From assembly GCF_001861355.1 (NCBI RefSeq), contig NZ_MASN01000035.1, positions 124,001-188,000 of the forward strand: a stretch of 64,000 nt of DNA, read 5' to 3'. This document shows, one piece after another, positions 43,219 to 62,083 of this stretch (the first letter of the stretch is position 1; the number at the start of each line of letters is the position of its first letter). Origin of the DNA: Natrialba sp. SSL1. GTDB taxonomy: Archaea > Halobacteriota > Halobacteria > Halobacteriales > Natrialbaceae. Position numbers and translations under genes: made by a program. The notes beneath the pieces are model-generated. The model worked only from the letters and a program-made list of their open reading frames with translations, ran no database searches and was not told the origin of the DNA.

Positions 43219-45411
43219 CTACTCGGTAGATGTCGAGTCGATGGCCGAGCGAACGAGGTCTGCCGAGAGAGACGACAAGGGTACACGTTCACCATCGGCA
43301 GTATCGGCGACAAGAGCCGAGAGGCCAGCCCGAGATTCGTCGCCGGCATCGACGACGATGAGTTCCGTACCGGTGCGTGCAAGCTGTCGAGCCTCGTTTC
43401 GCGTCGCGTCAGTCGGACTTCCGTCGGCCACGTTCGCTCTGCCGTCGGTAACGAGGACGACGATGGCAGTTTCGGTGTCCGATTGCTCGACGACCAACCG
43501 GGCGGTTTCGAGACCGGCTGGAAGCGGCGTTCGGTCGCCAGACGGCAGCTCCTTGAGGTGACGCGCGGCGAGGGAGACGCTGTTCGTCGGTGGGAGCAAC
43601 ACGTCAGCTTCCTCGCCCGCGAACGCGACGAACGCGACGTCGTCTTTCTGCTGGTAGCTGTCTCGCAAAAGCTCGAGGACGACACCTTTCGCGGTCCGCA
43701 TCGCGGGCCGCATCGACGCGCTCGCGTCGACCGCGAAGACGATCGTCGTTGACGTTTCGCCAGTTCGAACGGACTGGCGGAGATCGCCCGCCTCAACGTT
43801 CGATGCGCCGCGAGCCGCAGCGGATCGGACCGACGCCGCCGCATCTATCGGGCCCGTGTCCGACGCGGCTTCCGTTCTGATTCGGGCACCCCGGTTATCG
43901 GCGTCGGGTGTGACGCTCGTGCGAGAGCCGCTCGCACCCGCGGAGCGTTCGGCAGTGGCCTCCGGCGTCTCCAGTTCCGGCGCGCTCGCGTCACCAACCT
44001 CGGCCCGTCGTTGACCGGGAACGAGCGGATGGGCGGTCTCGTCACTGCTCTCGTCAGACTCCGTCTCCGCTTCGGATGTCTCGGCAGAGTCGTCGCGATC
44101 GCTGTGCTCTGCGTGCTCGTTCTCGGCTGAAGCCGATCCCCTGTCCCCGTTTGGCCGCCGTCCGTGGCCCGCGGTTTCGGATTCTGCGTCGTCAGTATCT
44201 GAACTGCACGAGTCGCCGTTGTGGTCGTCGTCTCCCTCACCGGACTCGTCGCGTTCGCGACCGTCGCCGTCGTCGGTGCCGCGCTCGCCGCCGTCCGCGG
44301 GTGCGGGCTCCCGCTCACTGTCATCGTCGGTCTCGTCGGTCCCGGCGGTCTCGTCGTCACCTTTCTCCTCCCCCCGCGATTCCTCGTCGAACCGATCCTC
44401 GAGCAGGTCGTCGAGCTCCGGTTCGTCTTCGAACGGTGTACTCCGGAGGCGGTGTGGCAGCGTGTAGGTGGCCGCCTCGCGAACGTCTGACTCGATCACG
44501 GTCGTTCGGTTCTCGAGTGCGGCCAGCGTCGCGGCGGTTCTCGCCGTGGCGATGTCGCCGCGGTGGCCCTCGACGCCGGCATCGAGGCACAGCTCGGCGA
44601 TTTCGGCTTTAAACTCGTCGGGAACGCTGACGCGGGGCAGGCGGTCGCGCGCTTCGGTTACCGTCTCGCCGAGTCGCTCGACGTCATCGGCGTGCGCTTC
44701 GGTCGGATCCGGGCCGGTTCCGCGGTCGATCGCCCAGTCGATGATCTCGACGCGGTCCGCGACATCTCGACAGCCCTCGACGGTTGCCCGAAGGGCGAAC
44801 CGATCCCGGAGTTGCGGCCGGAGGTCGCCCTCTTCGGGGTTCATCGTCCCGATTAGCGTGAAGTTCGCCGGATGGGAGACGCTGACACCGTCACGCTCGA
44901 CGGTGTTGACGCCGCTCGCGGCCGCATCGAGAAGGACATCGACGAGGTGGTCGTCGAGCAGATTGACCTCGTCGACGTAGAGGACGCCGCGGTTTGCGCG
45001 AGCGAGTAGGCCGGGATCGAACTCGGCCTCGCCGGCCAGCGCGTCTTCGACCGAGAGCGTTCCGACGACCCGATCACGGGTCGCTCCGAGCGGGAGCGTG
45101 ATGAGGGGGACGGGACGGGTCTCGACGGAGAACTCGTCGGCATCGCGTTCTCGACAGTCCGGGCACTGGCGGCTCGGATCGTCGGGTGCACAACTGAATC
45201 GACACTCCGCAACGACGCGCTGTTCGGGCAACAGATCGACGAGCCCTCGAACAGCGGTCGATTTCGCGGTGCCTTTCTCGCCGACGATTAACGCGCCGTC
45301 GAGCGAATCGTTCACGGCGACCGTCAGCAACACACGCTTGAGTTCCGGTTGGCCGACGATCGCCGGAAAGGGGATCGACGACAGGTTTTTGCCCCCGGCG
45401 TTTACAACCAT
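43219..45411 (-). CDS. Fused ChlI/ChlD-type chelatase subunit (AAA+ plus VWA)
   Basis: 730 residues. An AAA+ domain resembling BchI/ChlI (about 14-340) has Walker A GEKGTAKSTAVR, Walker B-like GVLYVDEVNLLDD and sensor NPEEGDLRPQLRDRF. An insertion with CRFSCAPDDPSRQCPDC (four Cys) may bind a metal. An acidic linker (about 345-545) leads to a VWA domain (about 550-730) with MIDAS motif DASASM and the later TDGRANV. Together with CobN it would form an ATP-dependent metal chelatase. It is divergent from cobN, 34 bases apart, with a TATA-like TTTTTAAA at about 45431-45438 on the minus strand. Start at ATG 45411 (MVVNAGG), probably leaderless. Confidence 0.9.
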   Translation of the reverse strand: MVVNAGGKNLSSIPFPAIVGQPELKRVLLTVAVNDSLDGALIVGEKGTAKSTAVRGLVDLLPEQRVVAECRFSCAPDDPSRQCPDCRERDADEFSVETRPVPLITLPLGATRDRVVGTLSVEDALAGEAEFDPGLLARANRGVLYVDEVNLLDDHLVDVLLDAAASGVNTVERDGVSVSHPANFTLIGTMNPEEGDLRPQLRDRFALRATVEGCRDVADRVEIIDWAIDRGTGPDPTEAHADDVERLGETVTEARDRLPRVSVPDEFKAEIAELCLDAGVEGHRGDIATARTAATLAALENRTTVIESDVREAATYTLPHRLRSTPFEDEPELDDLLEDRFDEESRGEEKGDDETAGTDETDDDSEREPAPADGGERGTDDGDGRERDESGEGDDDHNGDSCSSDTDDAESETAGHGRRPNGDRGSASAENEHAEHSDRDDSAETSEAETESDESSDETAHPLVPGQRRAEVGDASAPELETPEATAERSAGASGSRTSVTPDADNRGARIRTEAASDTGPIDAAASVRSAAARGASNVEAGDLRQSVRTGETSTTIVFAVDASASMRPAMRTAKGVVLELLRDSYQQKDDVAFVAFAGEEADVLLPPTNSVSLAARHLKELPSGDRTPLPAGLETARLVVEQSDTETAIVVLVTDGRANVADGSPTDATRNEARQLARTGTELIVVDAGDESRAGLSALVADTADGERVPLSSLSADLVRSAIDSTSTE

Positions 45412-45445
45412 AGTTGCGCTAATACAATAGAGGTTTAAAAATTCG
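45412..45445. promoter_or_regulatory. Divergent 34-bp promoter between chelatase subunit and cobN
   Basis: The compact region contains TTGCGCTAA at 45414-45422 (also found before cbiT at 51379-51387), a TAATACAA element about 20-27 nt before the cobN ATG, and TTTTTAAA on the minus strand about 20-27 nt before the chelatase ATG. Both genes are probably leaderless. Confidence 0.55.
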
Positions 45446-48400
45446 ATGGCACGTATCGGGATCTACACCGCGACGGAGAACGAACTCGGATCGATCGGCC
45501 GTGCGGCCGAGCGCCTCGAGGACGTCGAACTGGTCGTTCGCTCAGAGAGCGACTTAGACGACGAGGCGGCGATCGACGAGTTCGTCGACGAACTGCACGA
45601 CGCCGGAGCAGCGATCTTCTGGCTGCACGGTGCCGAGGACAGCATGCCGGGCTACGATTACGCGACGGGGGCACTCGAGGAGGCGAACGTTCCGCTGATC
45701 GTCAAAGCGACGGGCGACGCCTTCGCGTTCGAGGACACAACGGTCGCCGACGACCATCGTGACCTCGCCTACGAGTATCTGGAGAAAGGCGGCACGATCA
45801 ACGTCGCCAACCTGTGTCGGTTCCTCGTCGCCGAGTACGAGGACCGAGTTCTCGAGTACGACGAGCCCCAGGAACTGCCGACGGAGGGGGTCTACCACCC
45901 TGACTATCCGGGGATCGGCTACGAAGAACTGCTCGAAACCCACGACTCCGGCCGGCCGACGATCGCGATCTGGTTCTACGAATCCCACTGGACCCACGAG
46001 AACACCCGGTACGTCGATCGGCAGGTCCGGGCACTCGAGGAACAGGGCGTCAACGCCCTCCCGATCTTCTGTAACCCGGCGACCGACACAGACGAGCAGG
46101 AGGACGCCGAGTGGGTCACCGACAACTGGCTGCTGGATGACGAGGGTGGACCCGTTGTCGACGCCGTCCTCTCGTCGTTTATGTTCTCGCTCTCGATGGA
46201 CGAGCGCGGCCGGTCGGCCACCGGGGAGGGATGGAATCCCTCTGGCAGCCGGACGCAGTCCGGCGACGACGAGGGCGACAGCGCGGAGGACATCTTCCTC
46301 GACCGACTGGGCGTGCCGGTCCTCCAGACGGTCACGACGATGCGCTCCCGTTCCCGGTACGAATCCAGCGACACGGGCGTGATGGGGTTCGAACTCGCCC
46401 TCTCGGTCGCCCTGCCGGAGTTCGACGGGAACGTGATCACGCACCCGATTTCCGGCAAAGAGCGCACCGACGACGAGGCCGGTATCGGCTCCGCACCGAA
46501 ACACCACTTCCCGATCGACGACCGGATCGACCACGCGACGCGGTTGGCGGTCAACTGGGCACGGCTGCGCCACACGCCCAACGAGAACAAACAGATCGCC
46601 GTCGTCCTCCACAATTACCCGCCGAGCGACGACGGGATCGGCACCGCCTTCGGGCTCGACTCGCCCGAGTCGACCGTCAATCTGCTCGAGGAACTCGAGG
46701 CCCGGAACTACGATCTCGACGGCGAGATGCCCGACGACGGCCAGACGCTCGTCGAGAAACTCACGTCGCAACTGACCCTCGAGGACCGCTGGGTCGCCCC
46801 CGAGGACGTCCGCGACCTCTCCGTCGACGTTGTCTCCCCCGACACCTACGCGGAGTGGTTCAGCGACGCCGACGAGGGGTTCCAGGAGAACGTCGTCGAG
46901 GAGTGGGGCGAGGCGCCCGACCGCCCGTTCGCGATTCCGGGCGTCGAGTTCGGCAACGTGCTCGTGACGGTGCAACCGCCCCGTGGATTCGGCATGGACC
47001 CCTCGAAGGTCTACCACGATTCGGACCTCCAGCCGCCACACGACTACTACGCGTTCTACGGCTGGCTGCGCAACGAGTTCGAGGTCGACGGGCTCGTCCA
47101 CCTGGGAACGCACGGGAGTCTCGAGTGGCTCCCCGGAAAGACCGTCGGCCTGAACGGCGAGAGCGCACCCGACCAGCTGATCGACGACCTCCCGAACGTC
47201 TATCCGTACATCGTCAACAACCCCGGCGAGGGGACCCAGGCGAAACGGCGCTCCTACGCCGCCATCGTCGACTACCTCACCCCGGTCATGCGGTCGGCGG
47301 GAACCTACGACGAACTCGCGGAACTCGAGGAACTCGCCAACCAGTATCGCGAGGCCGGGATGGAAGACGCCCGGGCAGACGACGGGGAGCATCTCGAGAC
47401 GCTGATCCGCGAGAAAGTCGACGAACTGGACCTCGCCGTCGAGTTGGGGGTCCAAGGGAGCATCGACGAGAAGGTCGACGTCCGCGGTCCGGACGAAGCC
47501 GGCTCGACACTTGCCGAGGGAGACGTGGACGGCGACGACGTCGAGATCGACGAACTCGTCGAGCGGATCCACGAGTACCTCACCGACGTCAAGACGACCC
47601 AGATTCGGCTCGGCCTCCACACGATGTCCGAGCCACCGGCCGACGAGCGGCTGGTCGAGTACCTCGTCGCGCTCACCCGACTCGAGAACCCCGGCGCGCC
47701 GAGCCTGCGCGAGAGCGTCGCCGGCGCGCTCGGCGTCGACTACGACAAGATGTTGAACGCGCCCGGCGAGTACGACGAGGATCTGGGGATGACCTACGCT
47801 GAAGCCGCCGACGTGGTTCACGAGACTAGCCTCGACCTCGTGGAGACGCTGGCGGCGCACGACTTCGATGTGCCGGAATCCGAGCGTGAAATGGGGTCCG
47901 ACGACGTCTCGTCCGAGCAGCGCGAGGACGAGGCTCGTCAGACGAAGTCTGACGTTGAGGTGAACATGAACCTGCTCGTGGTCGACCTCGAGACGATCGG
48001 CGACGCGCGAGCCAAATCGGGCGCTCACGACGACCTCCGGAAGGCGCTAGCGTACATCTGCGAGGAGGCCCAGCCCCGCGTACAGGGCGCCAAGGACGAG
48101 ATTCCCCGCACCGCGGACGCCCTCTCGGGCGAGTACGTGCCTCCCGGTGGCTCCGGTGCACCGACCCGCGGCGGTGTCGACCTGTTGCCCACGGCGCGGA
48201 ACTTCTACACGCTCGACCCGCGGAAGGTGCCGGCCAAGCCAGCCTGGCAAGTGGGTCGAGAGGTCGCCGAGGGTGTGCTCGAGCGCCATCACGACGAGAA
48301 CGACGAATATCCAGAGGAGATCGGCGTCGTCGCCTGGGGCACTCCGACCGTGCGAACGCGCGGAGAGACGATCGGCCAGGTGCTCGCCATGCTGGGCGTC

Positions 48401-49438
48401 GAACCGCAGTGGACTGACGCAGGCCGGATCGACGACGTCGAGCCGATTCCGCTCGAGGAACTCGATCGACCCCGTATCGACGTGACGACCCGCGTCTCGG
48501 GACTGTTCCGCGACGCCTTCCCGGCCGCGGCAGGGGTCATCCACGACGCCGTCGATGCGGTCGTCGACCTCGACGAACCCCACGACATGAATTACGTGAA
48601 GAAACACGTCGAGGAGGAGGTCGAGGAACTGCAAGACGAGGAGGGACTCGACGAGTCCGACGCCCGCAAGGCCGCGAAACACCGCGTGTTCACGACCAAG
48701 CCCGGCGGCTACGGCGCCGGGACGAACAAGGCCGTCGACGAGGGCAACTGGGACGACCGCTCAGATCTGGCCTCGGTCTACGTCCAGTGGGGCGGCTACG
48801 CGATGGGTTCGCGTGGCCGGGTTTCGGACGCCCACGACGCCTTCGAACGGCGGCTCTCGAGTGTCGATGCGACTGTGAAGATCGAGGACACGATGGAGCA
48901 AGACGAGTTCGACTCCTCGGACTGGTACGCGTTCCACGGCGGCTTTATTTCCGCCGTCTCGGAAATCGCGGGCGAGGAGCCGTCCTCCTACGTCGGCGAC
49001 TCCTCGGACCCGGATAACGTCGACGTCTACACGAACGAAGAGAAGGTTCGCAAGGCGATGCGCTCCCGTGTCCTGAACCCGGACTGGCTCGAGTCCATGG
49101 AGGAGCACGGCTACAAGGGCGCCGGCGACCTCTCGACGACCGTCGACGTGACGCTGGGCTGGGACGCGACGACCGGCGTCGTCAGCGACACGCTCTGGGA
49201 GGCGGTCGCCGAGAAGTTCGCCTTCGACGAGGAGCGCCAGGAGTGGATGCGCGATGTCAACCCGTGGGCACTCGAGTCCATCACGGACACGCTGCTCGAA
49301 GCGATCGAGCGCGACCTCTGGAACGCCGACGAGGAGACCGTCGACCGCCTGCGCGATCTGAATCTCGAGGTCGAGGGCGATCTCGAGGCGCGGACGACCA
49401 ACGAGGCCGTCGGCGCGGGGGTACCGACCGATGACTGA
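45446..49438 (+). CDS. cobN: Cobaltochelatase subunit CobN
   Basis: 1330 residues, the usual size for CobN/BchH. This large subunit holds the corrin ring and inserts cobalt together with the AAA+/VWA partner. Recognisable blocks are VYHPDYPGIGYEELLE, IAIWFYESHWTHENTRYVD, HPISGKERTDDEAG, the conserved VVLHNYPPSDDGIGTAFGLDSPES, VTVQPPRGFGMDPSKVYHDSDLQPPHDYYAFYGWLR, HLGTHGSLEWLPGKTVGLN, GTQAKRRSYAAIVDYLTP, and the C-terminal FTTKPGGYGAGTNKAVDEGNW and YVQWGGYAMGSRGRVS. An acidic inserted stretch is at about 810-835. The frame opposite is a large antisense shadow, not a gene. Confidence 0.95.
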   Translation: MARIGIYTATENELGSIGRAAERLEDVELVVRSESDLDDEAAIDEFVDELHDAGAAIFWLHGAEDSMPGYDYATGALEEANVPLIVKATGDAFAFEDTTVADDHRDLAYEYLEKGGTINVANLCRFLVAEYEDRVLEYDEPQELPTEGVYHPDYPGIGYEELLETHDSGRPTIAIWFYESHWTHENTRYVDRQVRALEEQGVNALPIFCNPATDTDEQEDAEWVTDNWLLDDEGGPVVDAVLSSFMFSLSMDERGRSATGEGWNPSGSRTQSGDDEGDSAEDIFLDRLGVPVLQTVTTMRSRSRYESSDTGVMGFELALSVALPEFDGNVITHPISGKERTDDEAGIGSAPKHHFPIDDRIDHATRLAVNWARLRHTPNENKQIAVVLHNYPPSDDGIGTAFGLDSPESTVNLLEELEARNYDLDGEMPDDGQTLVEKLTSQLTLEDRWVAPEDVRDLSVDVVSPDTYAEWFSDADEGFQENVVEEWGEAPDRPFAIPGVEFGNVLVTVQPPRGFGMDPSKVYHDSDLQPPHDYYAFYGWLRNEFEVDGLVHLGTHGSLEWLPGKTVGLNGESAPDQLIDDLPNVYPYIVNNPGEGTQAKRRSYAAIVDYLTPVMRSAGTYDELAELEELANQYREAGMEDARADDGEHLETLIREKVDELDLAVELGVQGSIDEKVDVRGPDEAGSTLAEGDVDGDDVEIDELVERIHEYLTDVKTTQIRLGLHTMSEPPADERLVEYLVALTRLENPGAPSLRESVAGALGVDYDKMLNAPGEYDEDLGMTYAEAADVVHETSLDLVETLAAHDFDVPESEREMGSDDVSSEQREDEARQTKSDVEVNMNLLVVDLETIGDARAKSGAHDDLRKALAYICEEAQPRVQGAKDEIPRTADALSGEYVPPGGSGAPTRGGVDLLPTARNFYTLDPRKVPAKPAWQVGREVAEGVLERHHDENDEYPEEIGVVAWGTPTVRTRGETIGQVLAMLGVEPQWTDAGRIDDVEPIPLEELDRPRIDVTTRVSGLFRDAFPAAAGVIHDAVDAVVDLDEPHDMNYVKKHVEEEVEELQDEEGLDESDARKAAKHRVFTTKPGGYGAGTNKAVDEGNWDDRSDLASVYVQWGGYAMGSRGRVSDAHDAFERRLSSVDATVKIEDTMEQDEFDSSDWYAFHGGFISAVSEIAGEEPSSYVGDSSDPDNVDVYTNEEKVRKAMRSRVLNPDWLESMEEHGYKGAGDLSTTVDVTLGWDATTGVVSDTLWEAVAEKFAFDEERQEWMRDVNPWALESITDTLLEAIERDLWNADEETVDRLRDLNLEVEGDLEARTTNEAVGAGVPTDD

Positions 49439-51054: not shown

Positions 51055-51432
51055 TCGCGACCGATTGCTTTCCCGTTGAAAACCGGCCGACGCTGAACGC
51101 ACAGCCGTCGTGAACCGCCTTGTTCACTTGTAGATACTCACCACAGACGTTCTCGAGGTCACCGATCGTTTCGTTCGTCTGGCCATCAATGGGACCGAGT
51201 CCCCCGACGGTGTCCCCTTTTCGGTCTCCCACTCGCCGATCGGACACGACGAACGCAGATCGGCGGTCCGGCTTCCGAGCCGCTTTGGCACTCGAATCTG
51301 GTTCGCCGCACTCGTCGACCAGGACGGCACTGAATAAACGATACTTTCACTGGTTCAACTCAGAATGAGCAATATAATTTGCGCTAACTCAACCAAAATT
51401 GTTTTAGTGAATGCGACAGTCATCCACGGGTG
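51055..51432. other. Intergenic region before cbiT
   Basis: 378 bases with no supported gene. Its right end (51361-51420) is AT-rich and contains the cbiT promoter (AATATAAT near 51371-51378) and the TTGCGCTAA element at 51379-51387. Confidence 0.55.
51371..51387 (+). promoter_or_regulatory. cbiT promoter with TTGCGCTAA element
   Basis: AATATAAT is directly followed by TTTGCGCTAA. The exact 9-mer TTGCGCTAA also occurs at the cobN/chelatase promoter. Its place just after the TATA box fits a repressor site. Confidence 0.5.
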
Positions 51433-52050
51433 ATGCCACCCATCGCGCTGCCACACGATGCGAAGGCCGGACCGACCAAATCAGAGGTCCGCGCCGTCGT
51501 CCGCTCGAAGCTTGCACTCGGCGCGGCCGACCACTTCGCGGAGGTCGGCTCCTGTACGGGGGCCGTCACGATCGAAGCCGCACAGCGGGCCGGGCGGGTG
51601 ACCGCCGTAGAGCGAACGGCCGACCGACTCGAGACGACCGAGAAGAACCTCGCGGCCAACGAGGAGTCGATCGTGGCCGACGTCGAGTTGCGCAACGCGG
51701 AAGCTCCGGCGGGGCTGCCCGACGACGCCGATGCGCTCTTTTTGGGAGGGAGTCGGAACTTCGAGGCCGTGCTCGATCACGCGGTCGAGACCGGCGTCGA
51801 CCGCATCGTCATGAACGTCTCGCGACTCGAGGTCGCCGGGCGGGCGACGGAGGCGTTCCGCGAGCGGGACCTACTGGAGGAAGTCGTCCAGTTCCAGGTG
51901 AGCCACGGCTACGAACTCGCCGGCGCGACGAGTTTTAACTCGGACAATCCGGTCTACATGCTGGTCGGGAGCGCGACACCGGATTCAGACGATGAGAGAG
52001 ACGAGGGCGAGAAAGTCGCTGCGGACGGAAACGGAGGTGCGACGCAGTGA
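51433..52050 (+). CDS. cbiT: Cobalt-precorrin-6B C15-methyltransferase / decarboxylase
   Basis: 205 residues of the Rossmann-type methyltransferase. The SAM motif is FAEVGSCTGAVTIEAAQ. Other family features are AKAGPTKSEVRAVVRSKLAL, NLAANEESIVADVELRNAEAP and DRIVMNVSRLEVAG. It methylates C15 and removes a carboxyl from ring C. ATG 51433 was preferred over the GTG at 51430. First gene of the second cobalamin operon; the stop overlaps the GTG of cbiL. Confidence 0.93.
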   Translation: MPPIALPHDAKAGPTKSEVRAVVRSKLALGAADHFAEVGSCTGAVTIEAAQRAGRVTAVERTADRLETTEKNLAANEESIVADVELRNAEAPAGLPDDADALFLGGSRNFEAVLDHAVETGVDRIVMNVSRLEVAGRATEAFRERDLLEEVVQFQVSHGYELAGATSFNSDNPVYMLVGSATPDSDDERDEGEKVAADGNGGATQ

Positions 52051-52877
52051 CACTCTACGGTGTCGGCCTCGGCCCCGGCGAAGCCGACCTCGTCACCGTC
52101 CGCGGGAAGGAGGTACTCGAGGAGTGCGACGTGGTCTACTCGCCGGGGCGGCTCTCCCGCTCAGTCGCACTCGAACACGTCGACGAGTCGAAGATCGGGG
52201 ATCTGGACTTCCCGATGACGAAAGACGAGGAGAAGCTGCGAGCGGCGTGGAAGGAGGCCGCCGCGGAGGTCGCCCCCAAGGCCCGCGAGGGCGATGTCGC
52301 CTTCGTCACGCTGGGCGATCCGAACGTCTACTCGACGTTCGGCCACCTGCGGCGGACGATCGACGCGTTCCACCCCGACGTCGAACTGGAGATCGTCCCC
52401 GGCGTCAGCGCCGTCACGGCGTTCGCGACCGCGATGGGGGTCGAGATCGAGGCCGGTGCGGGGCTCTCCCTGCGCGAGGCCGCCAACGGGGCGAGCCCGA
52501 CGGGGCCGGATCGGATGATTCTGTTCAAGGTCACCGACGCGCCGGCGACCCACGAGGGGCTCGTCGCGGCCGGCTACGAGGTGACCTACGGCCGGCGCCT
52601 GTTCATGGAGCAAGGCGAGACGCTCGTCACCGACGACCCGACCGAGATCGACGAGCGTGACTATTACACGCTCGCCTACGCCGAGAAGGCGGATCTCGAG
52701 ATCGAGCAGGCGACGGCGGCGTTTCTGGATGACGGCGAGGGATCGACGGCCGCCTCGGACGAGAGCGACGCGAACGACGACGAGTCGAGCGGCGGCGAAC
52801 CCGTCGCGGACGGCGGAACAGTAGTCAGCGAAGAGATCGCCGAGGGCTGTGCACACGGCGACTGCGGAGGCCACTGA
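52047..52877 (+). CDS. cbiL: Cobalt-precorrin-2 C20-methyltransferase
   Basis: 276 residues, GTG start overlapping the cbiT stop. Tetrapyrrole-methylase signature GVGLGPGEADLVTVRGKEVLEE, then DVAFVTLGDPNVYSTFGHLRR (SAM-binding, motif GDPxxY) and IVPGVSAVTAFATAM. The C-terminal tail from about 230 is a disordered acidic stretch followed by CAHGDCGGH, a small Cys/His cluster that could bind metal; it is not part of the family core. Confidence 0.93.
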   Translation: MTLYGVGLGPGEADLVTVRGKEVLEECDVVYSPGRLSRSVALEHVDESKIGDLDFPMTKDEEKLRAAWKEAAAEVAPKAREGDVAFVTLGDPNVYSTFGHLRRTIDAFHPDVELEIVPGVSAVTAFATAMGVEIEAGAGLSLREAANGASPTGPDRMILFKVTDAPATHEGLVAAGYEVTYGRRLFMEQGETLVTDDPTEIDERDYYTLAYAEKADLEIEQATAAFLDDGEGSTAASDESDANDDESSGGEPVADGGTVVSEEIAEGCAHGDCGGH

Positions 52878-52878
52878 T

Positions 52879-53769
52879 ATGACGGACGAGACTACCGGCG
52901 ACGACCCTCAGGACGCGATCGATTCCCAGGGCGAGCGCCGCCACGAGGAGCTAGACGATCGGATTTTCGAACACAGCGCCGGCGACGAGCAGGCGGGGAT
53001 TCCCTTCGTCGGCGCCGGCCCCGGCAACCCGCGGTTGCTGACCGTCGCCGGGAAGGAGCTACTCGAGACGGCCGACCTCGTGGTCCACGCGGGGTCGCTG
53101 GTCAACAGCGAACTACTCGAGGAGTACTGTGACCACGCCGAACTTGTGAACTCGGTCGGGAAGGATCTCGAGGAGCTGATCCCGTTAATGCGGGACGCCT
53201 ACGAGGAGGGCCGCAACGTCGTCCGGCTCCACAGCGGCGATCCCGCGATCTACGGGGCCGCCCTGGAGCAGATGGACGCGCTGGAGCACGAGGGCGTTCC
53301 GACCTACTTCGTGCCGGGGGTCACCTCGGCGTTCGCGGCCAGCGCGACGCTGCGGACGCAACTGACGCTCAACGAGGTTTCGAATCACGTCGCGTTCACC
53401 CGGCCGCAAGGCAAGACACTCGAGCCGGGGGAGGACCACATCTCCGAGTTCGTGGCAATGGGCGACGTGACGACCTGCATCTACCTCGGGACCCACGCCG
53501 TTCGCGACACGATGGATCGACTGCTCGCGGACGGCCACGATCCCGAGACGCCGGTCGCGGTGATCTACCACGCCTCGTGGCCGGACGAGGACGTGATCGT
53601 CGGCTCGGTCGGCGATATCGCGGACAAGGTCGAGGAGGCGGGCTACCGCGCCTCGGCGCTGGTCGTCATCGGCGACGCCGTGACGGGCGCCGGTTACGAG
53701 CGCTCCTACCTCTACGGGGACTGGGCAAATCGCGGACCGAACGACACAGAAGAAGTCGAGAGTGACTGA
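52879..53769 (+). CDS. cbiF: Cobalt-precorrin-4 C11-methyltransferase
   Basis: 296 residues from ATG 52879. Motifs are FVGAGPGNPRLLTVAGKELLE, VVHAGSLVNSELLEEY, VVRLHSGDPAIYGAALEQMDAL, FVPGVTSAFAASATLRTQLT and the CbiF-specific VAFTRPQGKT. Methylates C11 of the macrocycle. An acidic extension of about 40 residues comes before the core. It starts two bases after the cbiL stop. Confidence 0.94.
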   Translation: MTDETTGDDPQDAIDSQGERRHEELDDRIFEHSAGDEQAGIPFVGAGPGNPRLLTVAGKELLETADLVVHAGSLVNSELLEEYCDHAELVNSVGKDLEELIPLMRDAYEEGRNVVRLHSGDPAIYGAALEQMDALEHEGVPTYFVPGVTSAFAASATLRTQLTLNEVSNHVAFTRPQGKTLEPGEDHISEFVAMGDVTTCIYLGTHAVRDTMDRLLADGHDPETPVAVIYHASWPDEDVIVGSVGDIADKVEEAGYRASALVVIGDAVTGAGYERSYLYGDWANRGPNDTEEVESD

Positions 53770-53772
53770 CTC

Positions 53773-54768
53773 ATGAGCACGGACGACGCTACCACATCGG
53801 ACACGACGGACGACGGATCGAACGACAGCGGTCACTGTTCCACGCCGGATTCGGACGGCGAGGTCGCCGAGGAGATCGCGGTCGTCTCCTTCGAGCGGAA
53901 GATGGAGACCGCCGAGGAGATTGAATCTGAACTCGCAGATCGGTACGAGACGATCGACATCATCGAGTACCACGGCGATGTCTTCGAGGAGCACTGGGGC
54001 GAGTACGACTGTTTCGTCGGCCTCATGGCCTCGGGGATCGCGATGCGGAAGACGGCCCACCTGTTAGACGACAAGTGGGACGACCCCGCGATCTGCGTCG
54101 TCGACGAGGAACTCACGTGGGCCATTCCGATCACGGGCGGCCACCACGGCGCGAATCAGGTCGCGCAGGACCTGGCGACGATGGGGGCCGTCCCGGCGAT
54201 GACGACCGCGAGCGAGGCCGCGGGCAAGCAGGGTGTCGAGTCCCGCGCGAAGGCGATGGACACCCACGTCGTCAACGGCGACTCGACGGTGAAGACGAAC
54301 CTCGCCGTGCTGGACGACGACCTCGGTCCTGTCGAGCGACTCGAGGGACCCAAGGCTGTCCTCGTCGGCGACGACGTTACCGTCCTCAAGCGCAACAAAG
54401 ACGACGGCGTCGTCCTCGGCACCGGCAGCGTCTCCGGCGCCGACAAGGAGGCCTTCCTCGCCGCGTGGGAGGAGGCCCTCGATCAGACCGAGTACGACGT
54501 CGAGGATGTCGAGTTCGTCGGGACAGCGACCCGGAAGGAAGACGAGGAGGGCCTCCTGGAGGCCGCACAGGAACTCGATCTCGGCGTCGTGGCCTTCGAG
54601 AAGGAGACGCTGCTCGAACACGAGGGGCCGACGCCCTCGAAGTCGAAGGAGCTGATCGGCTGGCCCGGCGTCTCCGAGGCCTCGGCGATCGCCGGCGGCC
54701 GCGAGCGGGAACTGGTACTCGAGAAGATCAGCTACGAGAACGAGGTCACGGTGGCGATCGGCCGATGA
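53773..54768 (+). CDS. cbiG: Cobalt-precorrin-5A hydrolase
   Basis: 331 residues. CbiG opens the lactone ring and releases a two-carbon fragment. The N-terminal domain has FVGLMASGIAMRKTAHLLDDKWDDPAICVVDEELTWAIPITGGHHGANQVAQDL and the middle/C-terminal CbiG_C-like block DVTVLKRNKDDGVVLGTGS and PTPSKSKELIGWPGVSEASAI. An N-terminal acidic extension contains SGHCSTPDSDG. Stop overlaps the cbiH start (ATGA at 54765). Confidence 0.93.
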   Translation: MSTDDATTSDTTDDGSNDSGHCSTPDSDGEVAEEIAVVSFERKMETAEEIESELADRYETIDIIEYHGDVFEEHWGEYDCFVGLMASGIAMRKTAHLLDDKWDDPAICVVDEELTWAIPITGGHHGANQVAQDLATMGAVPAMTTASEAAGKQGVESRAKAMDTHVVNGDSTVKTNLAVLDDDLGPVERLEGPKAVLVGDDVTVLKRNKDDGVVLGTGSVSGADKEAFLAAWEEALDQTEYDVEDVEFVGTATRKEDEEGLLEAAQELDLGVVAFEKETLLEHEGPTPSKSKELIGWPGVSEASAIAGGRERELVLEKISYENEVTVAIGR

Positions 54769-55637
54769 GCGTCGACGATGCGACCGCCGAGACTGGGGGC
54801 ACGCCCGACGACCACGGCACCCTCTCGGTCGTCGGTATCGGCCCCGGTCTGCCGGATCACATGACGGTGAAGGCCAAGCGGGTGATCGAGTCCGCCGACG
54901 TCGTCATCGCCTCGAGCCTTTACCAGGAGTTCCTGCGCGACGACGGGACCATCCCCTCCGAGGAGCGGACCAACGAGGAGGGCATCGCCACCCGCGAGGA
55001 CGGCTTCGAACAGGAGATCGTCCGCTCGACGATGGGTCGCCAGATCGAACTCGCCCGCGCGGCGTTCGACTACGTCCGCGAGGGGAAAGACGTCGCCCAC
55101 GTCTCGGGCGGTGATCCCTCCGTCTACGGCAAGTCCGACCTCATCTTCAAGATGGCCGACGAGGAGGACGCCACCGATGTCCCGATCGAGATCGTTCCCG
55201 GTCTCACCGCGGCCCTGGGCGGCGCGGCCAACGTCGGCGCGCCGCTGTGTAACGATTTCTGCACCGTCTCGCTGTCGGACAAGTGGCGCGGCTGGGACGA
55301 GATCGAGGAGAAGCTGCGGGCGGCCGCGATTTCGGACTTCGTGATCGTCCTCTACAACTGCTGGCGCAACTACGAGCAGGCCGTCGAGATCGTCCGCGAG
55401 GAGCGGACCGACGACGCCCTCGTGGCGATCGTCAACGACGCCGGCCGCGCGGACGCCGGCCGCAACGGCGAGAGCCAGCACATCACCACGCTGGGGGAGG
55501 CCGCCGACCACGACGACAAGGTCTCGGGAATGGGCACCTCGCTGATCATCGGCACCCACGAGACCGAGACCTGGCGCAACGACGACCGAACGTACCTCGT
55601 CACCCCGCGCGGCGGGCGTGATGTCGACGACTTCTGA
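54765..55637 (+). CDS. cbiH: Cobalt-precorrin-3B C17-methyltransferase (first copy)
   Basis: 290 residues. Core signature VVGIGPGLPDHMTVKAKRVIESADVVI, YVREGKDVAHVSGGDPSVYGKSDLI, IEIVPGLTAALGGAANVGAPLCNDF, FVIVLYNCWRNYEQAVEI. The N-terminal frame upstream of the ATG at 54765 is open far back into cbiG, but that reading is a shadow; the ATGA overlap sets the start. Likely C17 methylation and ring contraction. A second CbiH-like gene follows. Confidence 0.9.
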   Translation: MSVDDATAETGGTPDDHGTLSVVGIGPGLPDHMTVKAKRVIESADVVIASSLYQEFLRDDGTIPSEERTNEEGIATREDGFEQEIVRSTMGRQIELARAAFDYVREGKDVAHVSGGDPSVYGKSDLIFKMADEEDATDVPIEIVPGLTAALGGAANVGAPLCNDFCTVSLSDKWRGWDEIEEKLRAAAISDFVIVLYNCWRNYEQAVEIVREERTDDALVAIVNDAGRADAGRNGESQHITTLGEAADHDDKVSGMGTSLIIGTHETETWRNDDRTYLVTPRGGRDVDDF

Positions 55638-55656
55638 CGATATCCACGAACCAACC

Positions 55657-56622
55657 ATGAGCACGGACACCAACGCAGACGCTGACGACGAATCGGCATC
55701 GAAATGTGGCGCTTCGACGAGCGACACCGATACTGAGTCCTCGGGCTCGAAATGCGGTGCTCCCTCGAGTGAGACGAGCGACGACTCGAGTTCGGACGAC
55801 GACTCGAACGAGCAGGAGGTCGGCGCGACGATCGAGGACTTCGATGCTGAGCCCGGCCAACTGATCGCCGTCGGCCTCGGGCCCGGCCACCCGGAGGGGA
55901 TGACTAAGCGCGCGAAGGACGCGCTGCTCGAGGCCGACCACATCGTCGGCTACACGACCTACATCGAACTCATCCCCGACGAGATCACCGAGCAGGCCGA
56001 CGACATCTACGACACGCCGATGTGCGGCGAAGTCTCCCGCACGGAGGAGTCGATCGACCGCACGCTCGCGGGCAACGACGTCGCCATCGTCGGCAGCGGC
56101 GATCCCAACGTCTACGCGCTGGCCGGGCTGGCGCTGGAGATACTCGAGTCCAAGGGCGCGACGGCGTCGATGGTCGACTTCGAAGTGGTGCCGGGCGTTC
56201 CGGCGGCCCAGTCCTGCGCCGCCCGCCTGGGTGCGCCGCTGGTGAACGACACCGTCTCGGTCTCGCTGTCGGATCACCTCGTCCCGATGCCCGAAATCGA
56301 GTCGCGACTTCACTCCGTGGCTAGCGAGAACTTCACGATCACGATCTACAACCCGTGGAGCCGCAAGCGCCGCGATAATTTCGAGAAGTGCTGCGAAATT
56401 CTCCTCACGCACCGCGAGCCCGACACGCCGGTTGGCATCGTCCACGGCGCCGGCCGCGAGGACGAGCAGGTGATGATCACCGAGCTCGGCGAACTCGAGG
56501 AACTCGGCGAGAGCGAAATCATCGACATGACGACGACGATCGTCGTCGGCACCGAGGACACCTACGTCTGGGACGACCGGATGGTCACGCCCCGTGGATA
56601 CGAGACGAAGTACGACTACTGA
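55657..56622 (+). CDS. Second CbiH-like precorrin C17-methyltransferase
   Basis: 321 residues from ATG 55657 (an upstream ATG at 55621 would add 12 residues). Core signature AVGLGPGHPEGMTKRAKDALLEADHIVG, DVAIVGSGDPNVYALAGLALEIL, EVVPGVPAAQSCAARLGAPLVNDTVSVSLSDHLVPMPEIESRL, FTITIYNPWSRKRRDNFEKCC. The N-terminal acidic extension carries SKCGA twice (near 20 and 36, by eye), a possible metal-binding tail. Paralogous to the first CbiH but clearly divergent, as in other haloarchaea. It may act at a different step. Confidence 0.88.
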   Translation: MSTDTNADADDESASKCGASTSDTDTESSGSKCGAPSSETSDDSSSDDDSNEQEVGATIEDFDAEPGQLIAVGLGPGHPEGMTKRAKDALLEADHIVGYTTYIELIPDEITEQADDIYDTPMCGEVSRTEESIDRTLAGNDVAIVGSGDPNVYALAGLALEILESKGATASMVDFEVVPGVPAAQSCAARLGAPLVNDTVSVSLSDHLVPMPEIESRLHSVASENFTITIYNPWSRKRRDNFEKCCEILLTHREPDTPVGIVHGAGREDEQVMITELGELEELGESEIIDMTTTIVVGTEDTYVWDDRMVTPRGYETKYDY

Positions 56623-56642: not shown

Positions 56643-56909
56643 ATGCCACGATACGAAGTCACCATCGAGAAAGACGCCTGCGACGGCATCTTCGCCTGCC
56701 TGACTCGCGATCCGCGATTCGTCGAGGGCGAGGACGGGCTGGCGACGATCGACCCCGGCGCGGATCCGGTCTACGACTGCGAGGGCGAGGTCACCGACAA
56801 CGAAGAACGGGTCGTCGCAACGTTCGACGACGACCGCATCGACGAGGCCAAACAGGCCGCCGCGGCCTGTCCGACCGACGCGATCGTCGTCGAGGAGGTG
56901 GTCGAATGA
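56643..56909 (+). CDS. Ferredoxin of the 3Fe-4S type
   Basis: 88 residues from ATG 56643. Cysteines are C13 and C19 (C-x5-C) and C76 followed by Pro77 (AACPTDA), the pattern of 3Fe-4S ferredoxins; C46 is an extra. It starts 20 bases after the cbiH2 stop and overlaps the next gene (ATGA at 56906). It probably supplies electrons to a corrin-pathway reductase or to the CbiX 2Fe-2S domain; the acceptor is not known. An ATG at 56388 in frame lies within cbiH2 and is ignored. Confidence 0.87.
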   Translation: MPRYEVTIEKDACDGIFACLTRDPRFVEGEDGLATIDPGADPVYDCEGEVTDNEERVVATFDDDRIDEAKQAAAACPTDAIVVEEVVE

Positions 56910-57643
56910 GCGACGCCGACGCCGCAAGCGAGGTTGCCGACGCTGCCGACGCCACCGGCTCACTGGCCGAGATCGAAGTCCCGGCCGACCCGCTCGCGGG
57001 CCACCCCGCGTCGGCGTACTTCTGGGGCCACGTCGCCGGCAGCGGCGATGTCTCGGACGGCGGCATCGAAGTCGTTGCCAACGACGAGGAATCCGCGCAG
57101 GTGCTCGCGGCGGTCGCCGGTGGCGACCTCGAGCACGACACCACGACCCGCGAGTACGCCCACGACACGTCGATCACTCGCACCGAGGACGAGTACACGC
57201 TCACGATCGACAGCGACAACGGTAACGAGTCAGGGCTGCTCGGCCGCAGCGGCGCGCTCGGCCTGCCCGTCGACGGTCGCGGCAACTACCGCTTTGGCGC
57301 GTTCAGCGAGTACGACCGGGAACTGCTCCGGGGCCTGCTCGAGGGCTGTGGCACGATCTGCTTCAAGTCCTCCAGCGGCACCGTCGGCATCTCGTTTGTC
57401 CACGACGACCGGGCGCTACTCGAGTGCGTTCAGGAACTGATCGACGACTGTCCGATCGAGACCCCCTACGACGAGCTCTCGGAGACGTCTTCGGGCGGCT
57501 ACTGGTTCGGCGTCGACGACGCCGTCGCACTCGAGTTCGGCACGTGGCTCTACGACGACTGCGAGGAGACCGGTCTCTTCGCGCCGAGCCGCCGCCGGAA
57601 ACTCGAACGCAGCCTCGAGCAGGCAGAAGCGTACGACGAGTAA
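56906..57643 (+). CDS. LAGLIDADG-fold protein, apparently catalytically dead
   Basis: 245 residues, coupled to the ferredoxin gene (ATGA). Two blocks line up with the LAGLIDADG helices of homing endonucleases: YFWGHVAGSGDV (38-49) and LLRGLLEGCGTI (140-151). Where a catalytic Asp/Glu is expected before the second Gly, there are Ser46 and Cys148. The C terminus WLYDDCEETGLFAPSRRRKLE also resembles the end of LAGLIDADG proteins. An N-terminal Ala/Asp-rich stretch of 25 residues is extra. It lies inside a corrin operon and has normal composition, so it is likely a retained protein of the pathway, not an intron remnant. Function unknown. Confidence 0.75.
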   Translation: MSDADAASEVADAADATGSLAEIEVPADPLAGHPASAYFWGHVAGSGDVSDGGIEVVANDEESAQVLAAVAGGDLEHDTTTREYAHDTSITRTEDEYTLTIDSDNGNESGLLGRSGALGLPVDGRGNYRFGAFSEYDRELLRGLLEGCGTICFKSSSGTVGISFVHDDRALLECVQELIDDCPIETPYDELSETSSGGYWFGVDDAVALEFGTWLYDDCEETGLFAPSRRRKLERSLEQAEAYDE

Positions 57644-57664: not shown

Positions 57665-58897
57665 ATGAACACACCCGACGAACCCACGTCCGTAACGACC
57701 GCCGGCTTCGACGACGAGGCCGTCCTGCTGGTCGGCCACGGCTCCCGTCGCGAGAAGTCCAACGAACAGGTGCGCGAGCTGGCGGCCGGTCTCGAGTCTC
57801 GGCTCGACGTTCCGGTCGACGCGGCGTTTCTCGAACTGGCGGAGCCGGCGATCGACGAGGCGTTCGCGACGTTCGAATCGGCCGTCTCGCGAGTGACGGT
57901 CGTCCACTGCTCGCTGTTCGCCGCGAGCCACGTCAAGAACGACGTGCCGCTGGCGATCGAGCAAGCCCGCGCGACCCGCGATCTCGAGATCGACAACGGC
58001 GCGCATCTGGGTATCCACCCGGCGATCATCGACCTGCTGGACGACCGGGCCGCCGAAGTGGAGGCCGAACTCGGGGTCGACCGTGGGGACGACGAGGTTG
58101 CCGTCGTTCTCTGTGGCCGGGGCTCGAGTGATCCGGACGCCAACGGCGACGTGCAAAAGCTCGCGCGACTGCTGTACGAGGGTCGCGACTTCGACCGCGT
58201 CGAGGCGACGTTCATCGGCGTCACGGAACCGACGCTCGAGGATACCCTCCACGGCCTCTCGAAGCACCGGCCGGACGCGGTCGTCGTGCTGCCCTACATG
58301 CTCGGCGACGGCGTGCTCACCCAGCGGGTCCGGGACTGGACGGCCGACTTTGACGACGACTACCCCTACGTCGACGCGCTGGCCGGCGATCCGCTTGGAA
58401 CCGACTCGCGGCTGCTCGATGTCTTCGCGGATCGCTGGCAGGAGGCGCGGTCGGGGAGCGTCGAGATGTCCTGTGACACGTGCAAGTACAAGGTCGATCT
58501 CGAGGGCTACGAGGAGGATGTCGGCGGGGCGCGAGCCATGCTTCGCGCGCTGGCCCACCGGGAGGCTCACGCTGATCGGGAGGATATCGACGACGAACCA
58601 CACAGCCACGACGCACCGGAAAAGCACGTCACGGTCTGTACAAATCGAACCTGCGCTGATGCGGGATCGACCGCGGTGCTCGAACGCATCCGGCAGGAGG
58701 CTCGCAACTCCGAGCGCTGTGACGTCCGCATCACCCGTTCGTCGTGTCTGGGTCGCTGCGGCGACGGACCGATGGTTGCGGTCTATCCCGACGGAATCTG
58801 GTACGGCGATGTCGCGGCCGAAGACGCCGACCGAATCGTTACCGATCACCTGGAGGGCGATCGCATCGTCAGTAATCTCGTCGATCAGATCCTCTAG
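57665..58897 (+). CDS. cbiX: Sirohydrochlorin cobaltochelatase CbiX fused to a 2Fe-2S ferredoxin domain
   Basis: 410 residues. Two CbiX-type halves (about 15-130, LLVGHGSRREKSNEQVREL and HCSLFAASHVKNDVPLAI; about 135-270, VVLCGRGSSDPDANGDVQKLARLL and VVVLPYMLGDGVLTQRV) form the large type of chelatase that inserts Co into sirohydrochlorin. Then SCDTCKYKVD (CxxC), a His/Glu/Asp-rich stretch (HREAHADREDIDDEPHSHDA), and a thioredoxin-like 2Fe-2S domain (about 325-400) with VCTNRTCADAG and RSSCLGRCGDGP. The fused iron-sulfur domain is common in archaeal CbiX. It is the early-step chelatase of the pathway. Confidence 0.9.
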   Translation: MNTPDEPTSVTTAGFDDEAVLLVGHGSRREKSNEQVRELAAGLESRLDVPVDAAFLELAEPAIDEAFATFESAVSRVTVVHCSLFAASHVKNDVPLAIEQARATRDLEIDNGAHLGIHPAIIDLLDDRAAEVEAELGVDRGDDEVAVVLCGRGSSDPDANGDVQKLARLLYEGRDFDRVEATFIGVTEPTLEDTLHGLSKHRPDAVVVLPYMLGDGVLTQRVRDWTADFDDDYPYVDALAGDPLGTDSRLLDVFADRWQEARSGSVEMSCDTCKYKVDLEGYEEDVGGARAMLRALAHREAHADREDIDDEPHSHDAPEKHVTVCTNRTCADAGSTAVLERIRQEARNSERCDVRITRSSCLGRCGDGPMVAVYPDGIWYGDVAAEDADRIVTDHLEGDRIVSNLVDQIL

Positions 58898-58971: not shown

Positions 58972-59343
58972 ATGAGCTGCTACGAAATTGAAGCACTTCG
59001 ACTCGGACTGATGAACGTCCTCGGCGTCGAGGATCAACACGCCCGCGACCACGCGGAGAAAGAACTCGAAGGACACCTCGAAGGCCCTATCGAGGGGCTC
59101 TCGGAGGCCGAGAGCCTGGCGGAGATCGAACGCCATCTCGACGCCGCGCTCGTCGACCTCGAAGAGACCGTCGCCGCGATGGATGCCGACGATCCGGAGT
59201 ACGATTACACTCGGGGTCGATTGCTGGCCGTTCGCGATGCCGAGCGCGCCGTTCATCGGCTGCGGGCACAGGGCAAAAGCATTACCGACGGTCTCGGAGA
59301 GGCACACGATCTGCTCCACGAGACCTTTCCCGTCGAGGAGTGA
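58972..59343 (+). CDS. DUF3209 family protein
   Basis: 123 residues, mostly helical, starting MSCYEIEALRLGLMNVLG. The blocks HARDHAEKELEGHLEGPIEGL and DYTRGRLLAVRDAERAVHRLRAQGKS are typical of DUF3209, found in haloarchaeal cobalamin loci. Function unknown. 74 bases after cbiX and six bases before the propeller gene, in the same direction. It could be a partner or a regulator of the corrin enzymes. Confidence 0.8.
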   Translation: MSCYEIEALRLGLMNVLGVEDQHARDHAEKELEGHLEGPIEGLSEAESLAEIERHLDAALVDLEETVAAMDADDPEYDYTRGRLLAVRDAERAVHRLRAQGKSITDGLGEAHDLLHETFPVEE

Positions 59344-59349
59344 GGGCGA

Positions 59350-60588
59350 ATGGCAGAACGCACGCACCGGTTCGACCGACACCCGCTCGGCGAGATCGAC
59401 AGTGCAGGGAGCCGGCAGATGTGGACGCGCTCGAGCGTCGAGTTCGCCGACAACGTTGCCATTGCTGGACAGTGGAACGGGACAGTCACCGCCTTCGACA
59501 CCGAGTCGCTCGATCCTCGGTGGGAGGTCGACCATCCGGAGAGCGCCGTCTCGCTAGCGGTCGCCGGTGAGACGCTCATCGTCGGGGGGCGCGGCGAGGA
59601 CGGAGTCATCGCGGGGTACGCTCTCGAGTCGGGAGAGCGACGCTGGACTGTCGACGCCGCAGCACACGTCGGGACGCCCACGAGCGACCGACTGTTCTCC
59701 ATGCCGTACGTTCTCGCGATCGAGGCCGATGACGACGGGGAGACCCTGTATGCGGCCGCTCGGCGGTACGAGCGCGACGGCGACGAACGCCGCTGGCAGA
59801 GCGCCATCTACGGGATCGAGCCAGACGGCGCGGTTCGGTGGCGGTACGAGACCGATGCCTCACCCATCGCGCTCTCACTCGACAGTGACCGGGATCGCCT
59901 GGCTGTCGGTTACAACCGCTGTACGGGAACGCACGATTGCGGTGTCAGTGTCCTCGATTCGGAGACAGGTAACTCTGAATGGATGTGGGACCCTGAAACG
60001 GATGGCGACCGCCGTGTCGGCGACGTTTCGTTTACCGGCGAGCACCTAGCCGTTGCAAGCCACGGCGACAAGCGCGGCTACCTACTCGAGGAGGGCGGTA
60101 CCGAACGGTGGACGGTTGATCTCGCGGTCGAGACCGACGTCGACGGCGAAACGCTGTATGCGTACCCGAATCATACCTACGCAAACGACGGATACGTGGC
60201 GTTCGTCACCGGGAATACGTACGCTGTTGACAGCAGAGAAACGTCGTCTCGGCACCCGAACGAACACCGTATCGCCGCCTTCGATATCGATGGCGAACCG
60301 CTGTGGGATGCGTCCGTTCGGGGATTTGTCACCGAACTCGCTGCACGCGGTCGCACGGTCGTCGCTCCGTGCGCCCAGAACTTCCGCGTTCGTGATTCAG
60401 AAACCCACGCGCTCCGCTGGTTCGACCTCAAAAACGGAGCGCAGGGCAAACGGAACGCCACGGGTATCGCAACGGCTGCGGCCATCGATAGCGAACGGAT
60501 CGCCGTGATCGAAGAACCGGTTGAATATCACGACGAACAGCGAGTCCACGGCGAGTACGCCCTTGGTATCGGGTCGCATTTTGTGTAG
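59350..60588 (+). CDS. PQQ/WD40-like beta-propeller protein
   Basis: 412 residues. About seven repeated blades of the PQQ/PhoP-like kind, each with a DxESLD/ExGERRW-type edge (VTAFDTESLDPRWEV, AGYALESGERRWTV, YGIEPDGAVRWRYET, VSVLDSETGNSEWMWD, FDIDGEPLWDASV). No signal peptide or membrane helix, so cytoplasmic. Ends the cobalamin operon. It might serve as a scaffold for corrin enzymes or be unrelated. No catalytic residues recognised. Confidence 0.78.
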   Translation: MAERTHRFDRHPLGEIDSAGSRQMWTRSSVEFADNVAIAGQWNGTVTAFDTESLDPRWEVDHPESAVSLAVAGETLIVGGRGEDGVIAGYALESGERRWTVDAAAHVGTPTSDRLFSMPYVLAIEADDDGETLYAAARRYERDGDERRWQSAIYGIEPDGAVRWRYETDASPIALSLDSDRDRLAVGYNRCTGTHDCGVSVLDSETGNSEWMWDPETDGDRRVGDVSFTGEHLAVASHGDKRGYLLEEGGTERWTVDLAVETDVDGETLYAYPNHTYANDGYVAFVTGNTYAVDSRETSSRHPNEHRIAAFDIDGEPLWDASVRGFVTELAARGRTVVAPCAQNFRVRDSETHALRWFDLKNGAQGKRNATGIATAAAIDSERIAVIEEPVEYHDEQRVHGEYALGIGSHFV

Positions 60589-61333: not shown

Positions 61334-62083
61334 TTACTTTTCGTCTCGAGGACCTGCGGAGATCGTCCCTTCCTCTGCGTGTCTGTGGCATTGTCGACAG
61401 AGCGACACCACGTTCTCCAGTCGATGCGCTCCCGCAGGCTCGTCGAAGGATCGAACTGGCTCTAGATGATGCACGTCTGGATTCCGCCCGAGTTCGTCCG
61501 CGTCGACACCACAGTGTTGACACGTGTAGTCGTCCCGCTCGAGTGCACGCCGGCGAACCGCCCACCACTTCTGTCCGTACGTGATCGTTCCACCCTCCCA
61601 CTGGTGATGAGCCGGTCCGACGACGTTGTCAGAGAGCCACGTACCATAGCACTCGAGTGTACAGAAGAATCCACGTTCTTGTGACTCGCGTGCGGCGGGT
61701 CGAACTGAGAGAGGTGCATCACAGGCGCGACACGCAACCGTCACTCGGTCGACGGTTTCGGCGTAGTTCTCCGGGAGCAATCCGTCTGCGTCCGCGACGC
61801 AGTCAGGGCAGAACACGCCCTTCTTCGAGGAGGGGTAGTACGAAAAGTCCGCGTCACAGTGGGTGCACGTTGTCGTCTCTTTCGCGTCGCGCCAGTTGCC
61901 GTTGTTCGAGCCGGCGTTCGGGTTGCAGTCGTCGCAGTACGATCTGCGCGCCTTTGGATCGTAGAACTCGAGTGCACAGTCCTTGCACGTTCGGTTCGGG
62001 AGTGGCTCGCCGTGGACTTTGGTGTGGTGTTGGCGCATGCCCTGTTCGGTCGGGAGCTCTCGGTCGCAGGTCGGACACTGCAT
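61334..62083 (-). CDS. Zinc-finger HNH endonuclease-like protein
   Basis: 249 residues. N-terminal C2H2-like finger (CPTCDRELPTEQGMRQHHTKVHG), two more Cys-rich knuckles (CKDCALEFYDPKARRSYCDDC, CTHCDADF...CPDC), a fourth (CRACDAPL...CTLEC), then an HNH domain (about 175-245) with YTCQHCG, NPDVHHLEPV and NVVSLCRQCHRHAEEGTI. The HNH core residues (His-His pair, Asn, His) are present, so nuclease activity is possible. It sits next to the repeat-flanked tRNA-Gln. It may be a remnant of a mobile element or a stand-alone nuclease. Confidence 0.87.
   Translation of the reverse strand: MQCPTCDRELPTEQGMRQHHTKVHGEPLPNRTCKDCALEFYDPKARRSYCDDCNPNAGSNNGNWRDAKETTTCTHCDADFSYYPSSKKGVFCPDCVADADGLLPENYAETVDRVTVACRACDAPLSVRPAARESQERGFFCTLECYGTWLSDNVVGPAHHQWEGGTITYGQKWWAVRRRALERDDYTCQHCGVDADELGRNPDVHHLEPVRSFDEPAGAHRLENVVSLCRQCHRHAEEGTISAGPRDEK

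Follow-up and report, generated by a model that had tools for sequence, protein, structure and literature searches.

The question raised by this locus is what a protein with the predicted fold of LAGLIDADG endonucleases does in the middle of a cobalamin biosynthesis operon. The gene is located in a window of 64,000 nucleotides from the Natrialba sp. SSL1 genome (contig NZ_MASN01000035.1), and its product, the LAGLIDADG-fold protein of Table 1, is referred to here as LAG. In the initial annotation it was described as a domesticated, apparently dead LAGLIDADG protein with motif-like segments at residues 38-49 and 140-151, in which Ser46 and Cys148 occupy the catalytic positions, and these positions agree exactly with the translation of the ORF (residues 140-151 read LLRGLLEGCGTI). 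The reported overlap of its start with the ferredoxin stop and the close proximity of cbiX were likewise confirmed: the ferredoxin ORF and the start of LAG share four nucleotides (ATGA), and 21 nucleotides separate the LAG stop from the cbiX start. A GGAGGT-type site is found upstream of the ATG in most relatives. At one locus (L031) the LAG stop overlaps the cbiX start, an overlap on the cbiX side being found in two lineages, and of the in-frame stops reported for some LAG homologues, both that were checked proved to be real stop codons adjoining or overlapping cbiX. The closest named homologue belongs to Natrialba hulunbeirensis (95% identity); homologues are also annotated in Halorussus and others, the RefSeq name being 'cobalamin biosynthesis protein'. 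The dN/dS values of 0.15-0.28 against closer relatives indicate a working gene, which by this measure is under purifying selection.

Table 1. Features of the cobalamin locus, in positions of the window
Feature	Position	Strand	Basis
cbiT, cbiL, cbiF, cbiG, cbiH1, cbiH2, cobalt-early pathway	51430..56622	+	cbiH1, cbiH2 by homology to named records
Single-cluster ferredoxin (Fer4_15)	56643..56909	+	PF13459, E=9.9e-15
LAG, LAGLIDADG-fold protein, 245 aa, predicted nuclease-dead	56906..57643	+	ORF (ATG at 56906, stop ends at 57643), translation, fold, profile match, conservation
LAG motif 1, residues 38-49, YFWGHVAGSGDV, Ser46 at the catalytic position	57017..57052	+	
LAG motif 2, residues 140-152, LLRGLLEGCGTIC, Cys148 (catalytic position) and Cys152	57323..57361	+	
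CbiX cobaltochelatase, C-terminal thioredoxin-like [2Fe-2S] domain, no His-rich tail	57665..58897	+	PF01903, PF01257
DUF3209 protein, co-inherited module	58972..59343	+	PF11483, E=4.1e-51; distribution
PQQ-type beta-propeller protein, at the end of the module	59350..60588	+	PF13360; synteny

The Pfam model LAGLIDADG_3 (PF14528) matches the LAG of the window with E=0.055, under the cut-off, and matches 14 of 32 LAG homologues, with a best E value of 2.7e-5. An NCBIfam search gave no family for LAG, and no signal emerged when its first half was compared with its second. AlphaFold was applied to the window LAG (pLDDT 84.6) and to its most distant homologue, which is about one-third identical (pLDDT 84.7); both models are confident and consist of two alpha-beta repeats of the LAGLIDADG type, with the order alpha-beta-beta-alpha-beta-beta-alpha occurring twice per chain. 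In Foldseek searches of the PDB, the fold matches of LAG at E<=0.001 were LAGLIDADG proteins, with I-DmoI, the bI3 maturase and PI-SceI at the top for both models, and WhiA and PI-PfuI additionally matched by the model of the divergent homologue. The TM-scores are moderate (about 0.4-0.6, with rmsd of 5-8 A), suggesting that the fold is right, yet no single structure is close. When the LAG profile was aligned with that of 13 endonuclease domains from haloarchaeal inteins, 176 columns were covered, and both motifs and their LAGLIDADG helices were in register (score 44.6, probability 87%); among the controls, 100 column shuffles did not exceed 24.9, seven other families encoded in the operon did not exceed 17.4, and the reversed alignment scored 16.2. 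Since sequence searches of solved structures with LAG returned no LAGLIDADG match (one lectin, E=0.58), the assignment is based on structure comparison together with the profile-profile alignment, by which LAG has a two-motif LAGLIDADG fold, with a match beyond chance. Comparison of predicted structure and profiles with this family had been proposed as the check on the fold claim; LAGLIDADG proteins lead in it, neither an unrelated fold nor a lack of profile match was seen, and the claim is borne out by the fold search and the intein alignment.

Cleavage by LAGLIDADG enzymes requires a pair of acidic residues, one from each motif. The motif 2 acid, which is Glu or Asp in haloarchaeal inteins, is replaced by Cys148 in all 86 distinct LAG homologues, so no member possesses the cleavage pair. 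Position 46 in motif 1 is Ser in 65 of these sequences, Asp in 12, Gly in 6 and Ala in 2. The proposed loss of both acids is therefore to be corrected in one half: across the aligned homologues Cys148 is an invariant replacement, whereas Ser46 is a feature of a lineage. Other invariant residues include Cys152, Glu146, His86, Gly143, Gly149, Arg129, Arg229, Lys232, Phe201 and Tyr216. Cys148 and Cys152 presumably correspond to D20 and I24 of I-CreI, both central on the DNA face. LAG is free-standing at a conserved operon position, with no intein, intron or mobile gene, and a search for phage relatives found none. With the homing endonucleases of inteins and introns (I-DmoI, PI-SceI, PI-PfuI and the haloarchaeal inteins) it shares the two-repeat fold and the register of both motifs, but it differs from them in being a free-standing operon gene, in the invariant Cys in place of the motif 2 acid and in its acidic strand face. 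LAG is predicted to be nuclease-dead, and the view of it as a domesticated protein is supported, as are the fold, the lost acids and the conserved position in the operon.

The acidic face was seen in the four strand hairpins that carry the DNA contacts in the LAGLIDADG family. Their net charge per 100 residues is -16.6, -16.0, +3.8 and -17.1 in LAG, versus +1.8, -3.4, -2.3 and +7.6 in haloarchaeal intein endonucleases, so that three of the four LAG hairpins, that is, the former DNA face, are strongly acidic. Overall net charge per 100 residues is -9.8 for LAG, -9.6 for CbiX, -11.7 for CbiG and -3.9 for the inteins.

The order of the cluster is cobN-cbiC-cbiE-cbiT-cbiL-cbiF-cbiG-cbiH1-cbiH2-ferredoxin-LAG-cbiX-DUF3209-PQQ propeller. 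Conservation of the operon position across haloarchaea, which the initial annotation had suggested checking, holds in the 36 clusters examined, in all of which LAG adjoins cbiX; in most clusters LAG is flanked by Fe-S proteins, with the ferredoxin on one side and the [2Fe-2S] CbiX on the other. Among 391 genomes of the class, 202 carry both LAG and CbiG, two LAG alone and eight CbiG alone; about half of the class is without both, so joint loss has probably been repeated many times. In a draw of 295 genomes from the phylum, all 24 genomes with a match belong to the same taxonomic order. The clusters of G069, G071 and G096 are without all four of ferredoxin, LAG, DUF3209 and propeller, as are those of G296, G344, G345 and G383, the sole DUF3209 match in G296 being sub-threshold and outside the cluster. 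In the CbiG tree the LAG-bearing clusters are grouped together (support 99/98), and G019 falls within their group as a single loss; the other genomes with CbiG alone branch outside this group, on long branches and with an uncertain deep order. LAG is co-inherited as one module with the ferredoxin, the CbiX [2Fe-2S] domain, DUF3209 and the propeller.

Several other features were observed. At window positions 43219-49438, beside the cobalt-early cluster, lie cobN and a divergent ChlI/D-like gene, and such neighbours have likewise been noted in Haloferax (PMC8305020). Downstream of the cluster, an HNH endonuclease-like ORF on the minus strand (61334-62083; PF01844, E=2.3e-6) carries zinc-finger-like Cys pairs. 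Two CbiG genes each are present in G104 and G340; in G104 (L133, L134) LAG-cbiX-DUF3209 occurs in one cluster with no ferredoxin, which in the second cluster follows cbiG.

The distribution of LAG is related to the form of its neighbour CbiX. In all eight CbiG genomes without LAG, a CbiX has a His-rich tail following an MXCXXC motif, the final 70 residues containing 12-24 His (in G383 and G344 this cbiX is located away from cbiH2). At the 36 LAG loci no His-tailed CbiX lies beside LAG, the maximum being 6 His per 30 residues, and CbiX carries the thioredoxin-like [2Fe-2S] domain there, L053 departing from the cysteine pattern used. No His tail was found in the other CbiX-family places sampled in LAG genomes, and in eight haloarchaeal plasmid records with LAG the CbiX matches stop before the tail. 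The nested loss is the most direct case: G019 has lost LAG and kept the remaining module, and a second, His-tailed CbiX starts at the ATGA overlap with the ferredoxin stop, in the slot of LAG. LAG is therefore both linked to cbiX and exchanged with the His tail, as may be expected of a CbiX-associated factor, although the exchange is based on few independent events, the exceptions besides G019 lying outside the LAG clade.

As to CbiX itself, the haloarchaeal protein occurs in two forms, with a His-rich tail or with a [2Fe-2S] domain, and the form predicts the presence of LAG in every genome examined (CbiX genes: L110 10703-11644; L111, L112, L113, L131, L132, L172, L175). In Thermus thermophilus HB8 (pTT27; L136 9897-11363) a [2Fe-2S] CbiX is followed directly by DUF3209 in a cobalamin cluster. 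The pairing of [2Fe-2S] CbiX with DUF3209 either predates the haloarchaeal module or extends beyond it.

In G070 the module is scattered over three contigs, and the relocated LAG is flanked by two cation diffusion facilitator (cation-efflux) genes and accompanied by a rhodanese gene; these genes share one strand (L040 4545-7554).

That LAG is a cobalt-handling partner of CbiX is the reading favoured by its slot adjacent to the chelatase, its exchange with a metal-binding tail, its proximity to metal transporters and its invariant Cys and His residues, and a probability of roughly one half is given to it on these genomic comparisons. A two-repeat LAGLIDADG protein, a relative of intein homing endonucleases, entered the cobalamin operon of haloarchaea and, as sequence and fold show, lost its ability to cleave DNA. 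LAG would most likely bind Co(II), or pass it to CbiX at the cobalt-insertion step, and so perform the task ascribed to the His-rich tail of other CbiX proteins; the metal site would probably be formed around Cys148, which replaced the catalytic acid, and Cys152, perhaps with His86. Taken as a whole, a homing-endonuclease fold rebuilt into a cobalt-binding protein, with the catalytic acid turned into an invariant Cys near a second Cys, supplying CbiX and replacing its His tail, is put forward more tentatively, as somewhat less probable than its central part. His166 was dropped from the candidate site, since 6 of the 86 homologues have Ala or Thr instead.

Several points weigh against cobalt handling besides the small number of exchanges. 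The arrangement in G070 is a single case, with putative metal transporters, and in Thermus a [2Fe-2S] CbiX and DUF3209 occur in the absence of both LAG and the His tail. Metal storage and delivery were proposed for the His-rich region of Bacillus megaterium CbiX, the deletion of which left cobalt insertion unaffected (PMC7689651), so the task shared by LAG and the tail may be a minor one. If the exchange is causal, LAG and the His-rich tail of this CbiX-L would occupy the same functional niche, being unrelated in sequence and structure: the tail is disordered, LAG a folded partner. The CobW protein of the cobalt-late pathway is an analogy only, as a metal supplier encoded beside the cobaltochelatase (PMC7689651); it is a G3E-family GTPase, to which LAG shows no relation.

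Alternatively, LAG might bind a tetrapyrrole or corrin intermediate, serving as a scaffold or channel from the methyltransferases to CbiX with an aromatic saddle surface in place of the DNA groove and with no free cobalt involved. The strict co-inheritance of LAG with the pathway, its invariant or near-invariant aromatic residues (Tyr38, Trp40, Trp200, Phe201 and Tyr216) and its acidic, non-DNA surface would all fit such a role, but the same Cbi enzymes work without LAG when a His-tailed CbiX is present, suggesting metal rather than tetrapyrrole, and the two invariant Cys would be superfluous; this explanation is considered unlikely. Corrin-pathway scaffolding had been one of the functions suggested at the outset, and its direction towards the pathway stands, while the scaffold itself gives way to a narrower point, cobalt insertion by CbiX.

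The other function suggested at the outset, RNA or DNA binding for regulation of the cobalamin operon after a WhiA-like domestication, found no support and is rather less probable than a corrin scaffold. Nearly every known protein with this fold binds nucleic acid, several Arg and Lys residues of LAG are invariant, and WhiA provides a precedent which is also among the structural matches. To our knowledge, the domesticated LAGLIDADG proteins (WhiA, HO, maturases) have all kept a nucleic-acid function. The closest precedent, WhiA, acts on DNA by means of an added HTH domain (PMC3781837). WhiA/DUF199, a transcription factor of Gram-positive bacteria, and LAG are both degenerate LAGLIDADG proteins without the catalytic residues. 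Unlike WhiA, LAG has an acidic surface, belongs to a metabolic operon and was found in Halobacteria only in the searches made; it has no HTH or WhiA match in Pfam, and in the AlphaFold model its C terminus is the last LAGLIDADG helix (residues 227-244), with no HTH following. Three acidic hairpins and a net charge resembling that of the metabolic enzymes of the operon, and not that of intein endonucleases, also argue against a regulator, which moreover would leave the exchange with the CbiX His tail unexplained.

Still less probable is that LAG assembles or protects the Fe-S clusters of the ferredoxin and of the CbiX [2Fe-2S] domain. Its place between two Fe-S proteins in most clusters, the invariance of Cys148 and Cys152 and the rhodanese neighbour in G070 are consistent with this role, but G019 retains both Fe-S proteins, and Thermus the [2Fe-2S] CbiX, without LAG.

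That LAG is the missing cobalt-precorrin methyltransferase (the CbiD step) or reductase (the CbiJ step) is very improbable and was rejected, as G019, G069, G071 and G096 have the pathway cluster without LAG, CbiD or CbiJ, and we know of no SAM or NAD(P)H site in the LAGLIDADG fold. LAG is in the right operon (PMC8305020), and both enzymes are absent in all 100 relatives of G000 searched, including G069, G071 and G096. Because these three genomes are without all four of ferredoxin, LAG, DUF3209 and propeller as well, the four genes are not the general answer for CbiD and CbiJ, unless those genomes rely on a different solution, and the two gaps in the pathway must be filled by something else. 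The corresponding genes of Haloferax, HVO_B0052, HVO_B0053, HVO_B0055 and HVO_B0056, are unassigned members of the cluster considered as candidates for these steps (PMC8305020). From gene order only, they would be the propeller, DUF3209, LAG and the ferredoxin, respectively; HVO_B0055 of Haloferax volcanii, located between cbiX1 (HVO_B0054) and HVO_B0056, belongs by its operon position to the same family as LAG.

In the literature searched, nothing links LAGLIDADG proteins with cobalamin biosynthesis, HVO_B0055 is named in a single paper, and the fold, the dead site and the CbiX His-tail exchange of the HVO_B0055 family are not described. If cobalt handling is the true function, LAG would represent a LAGLIDADG fold that has moved into metabolism, with a role confined to it and independent of nucleic acids. 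HVO_B0055 would gain a testable role; it is no longer a general candidate for the two enzymes that the pathway lacks, and the natural swap of a folded partner for a His-rich tail would offer a direct route to the metal supply of class II chelatases in Haloferax volcanii.
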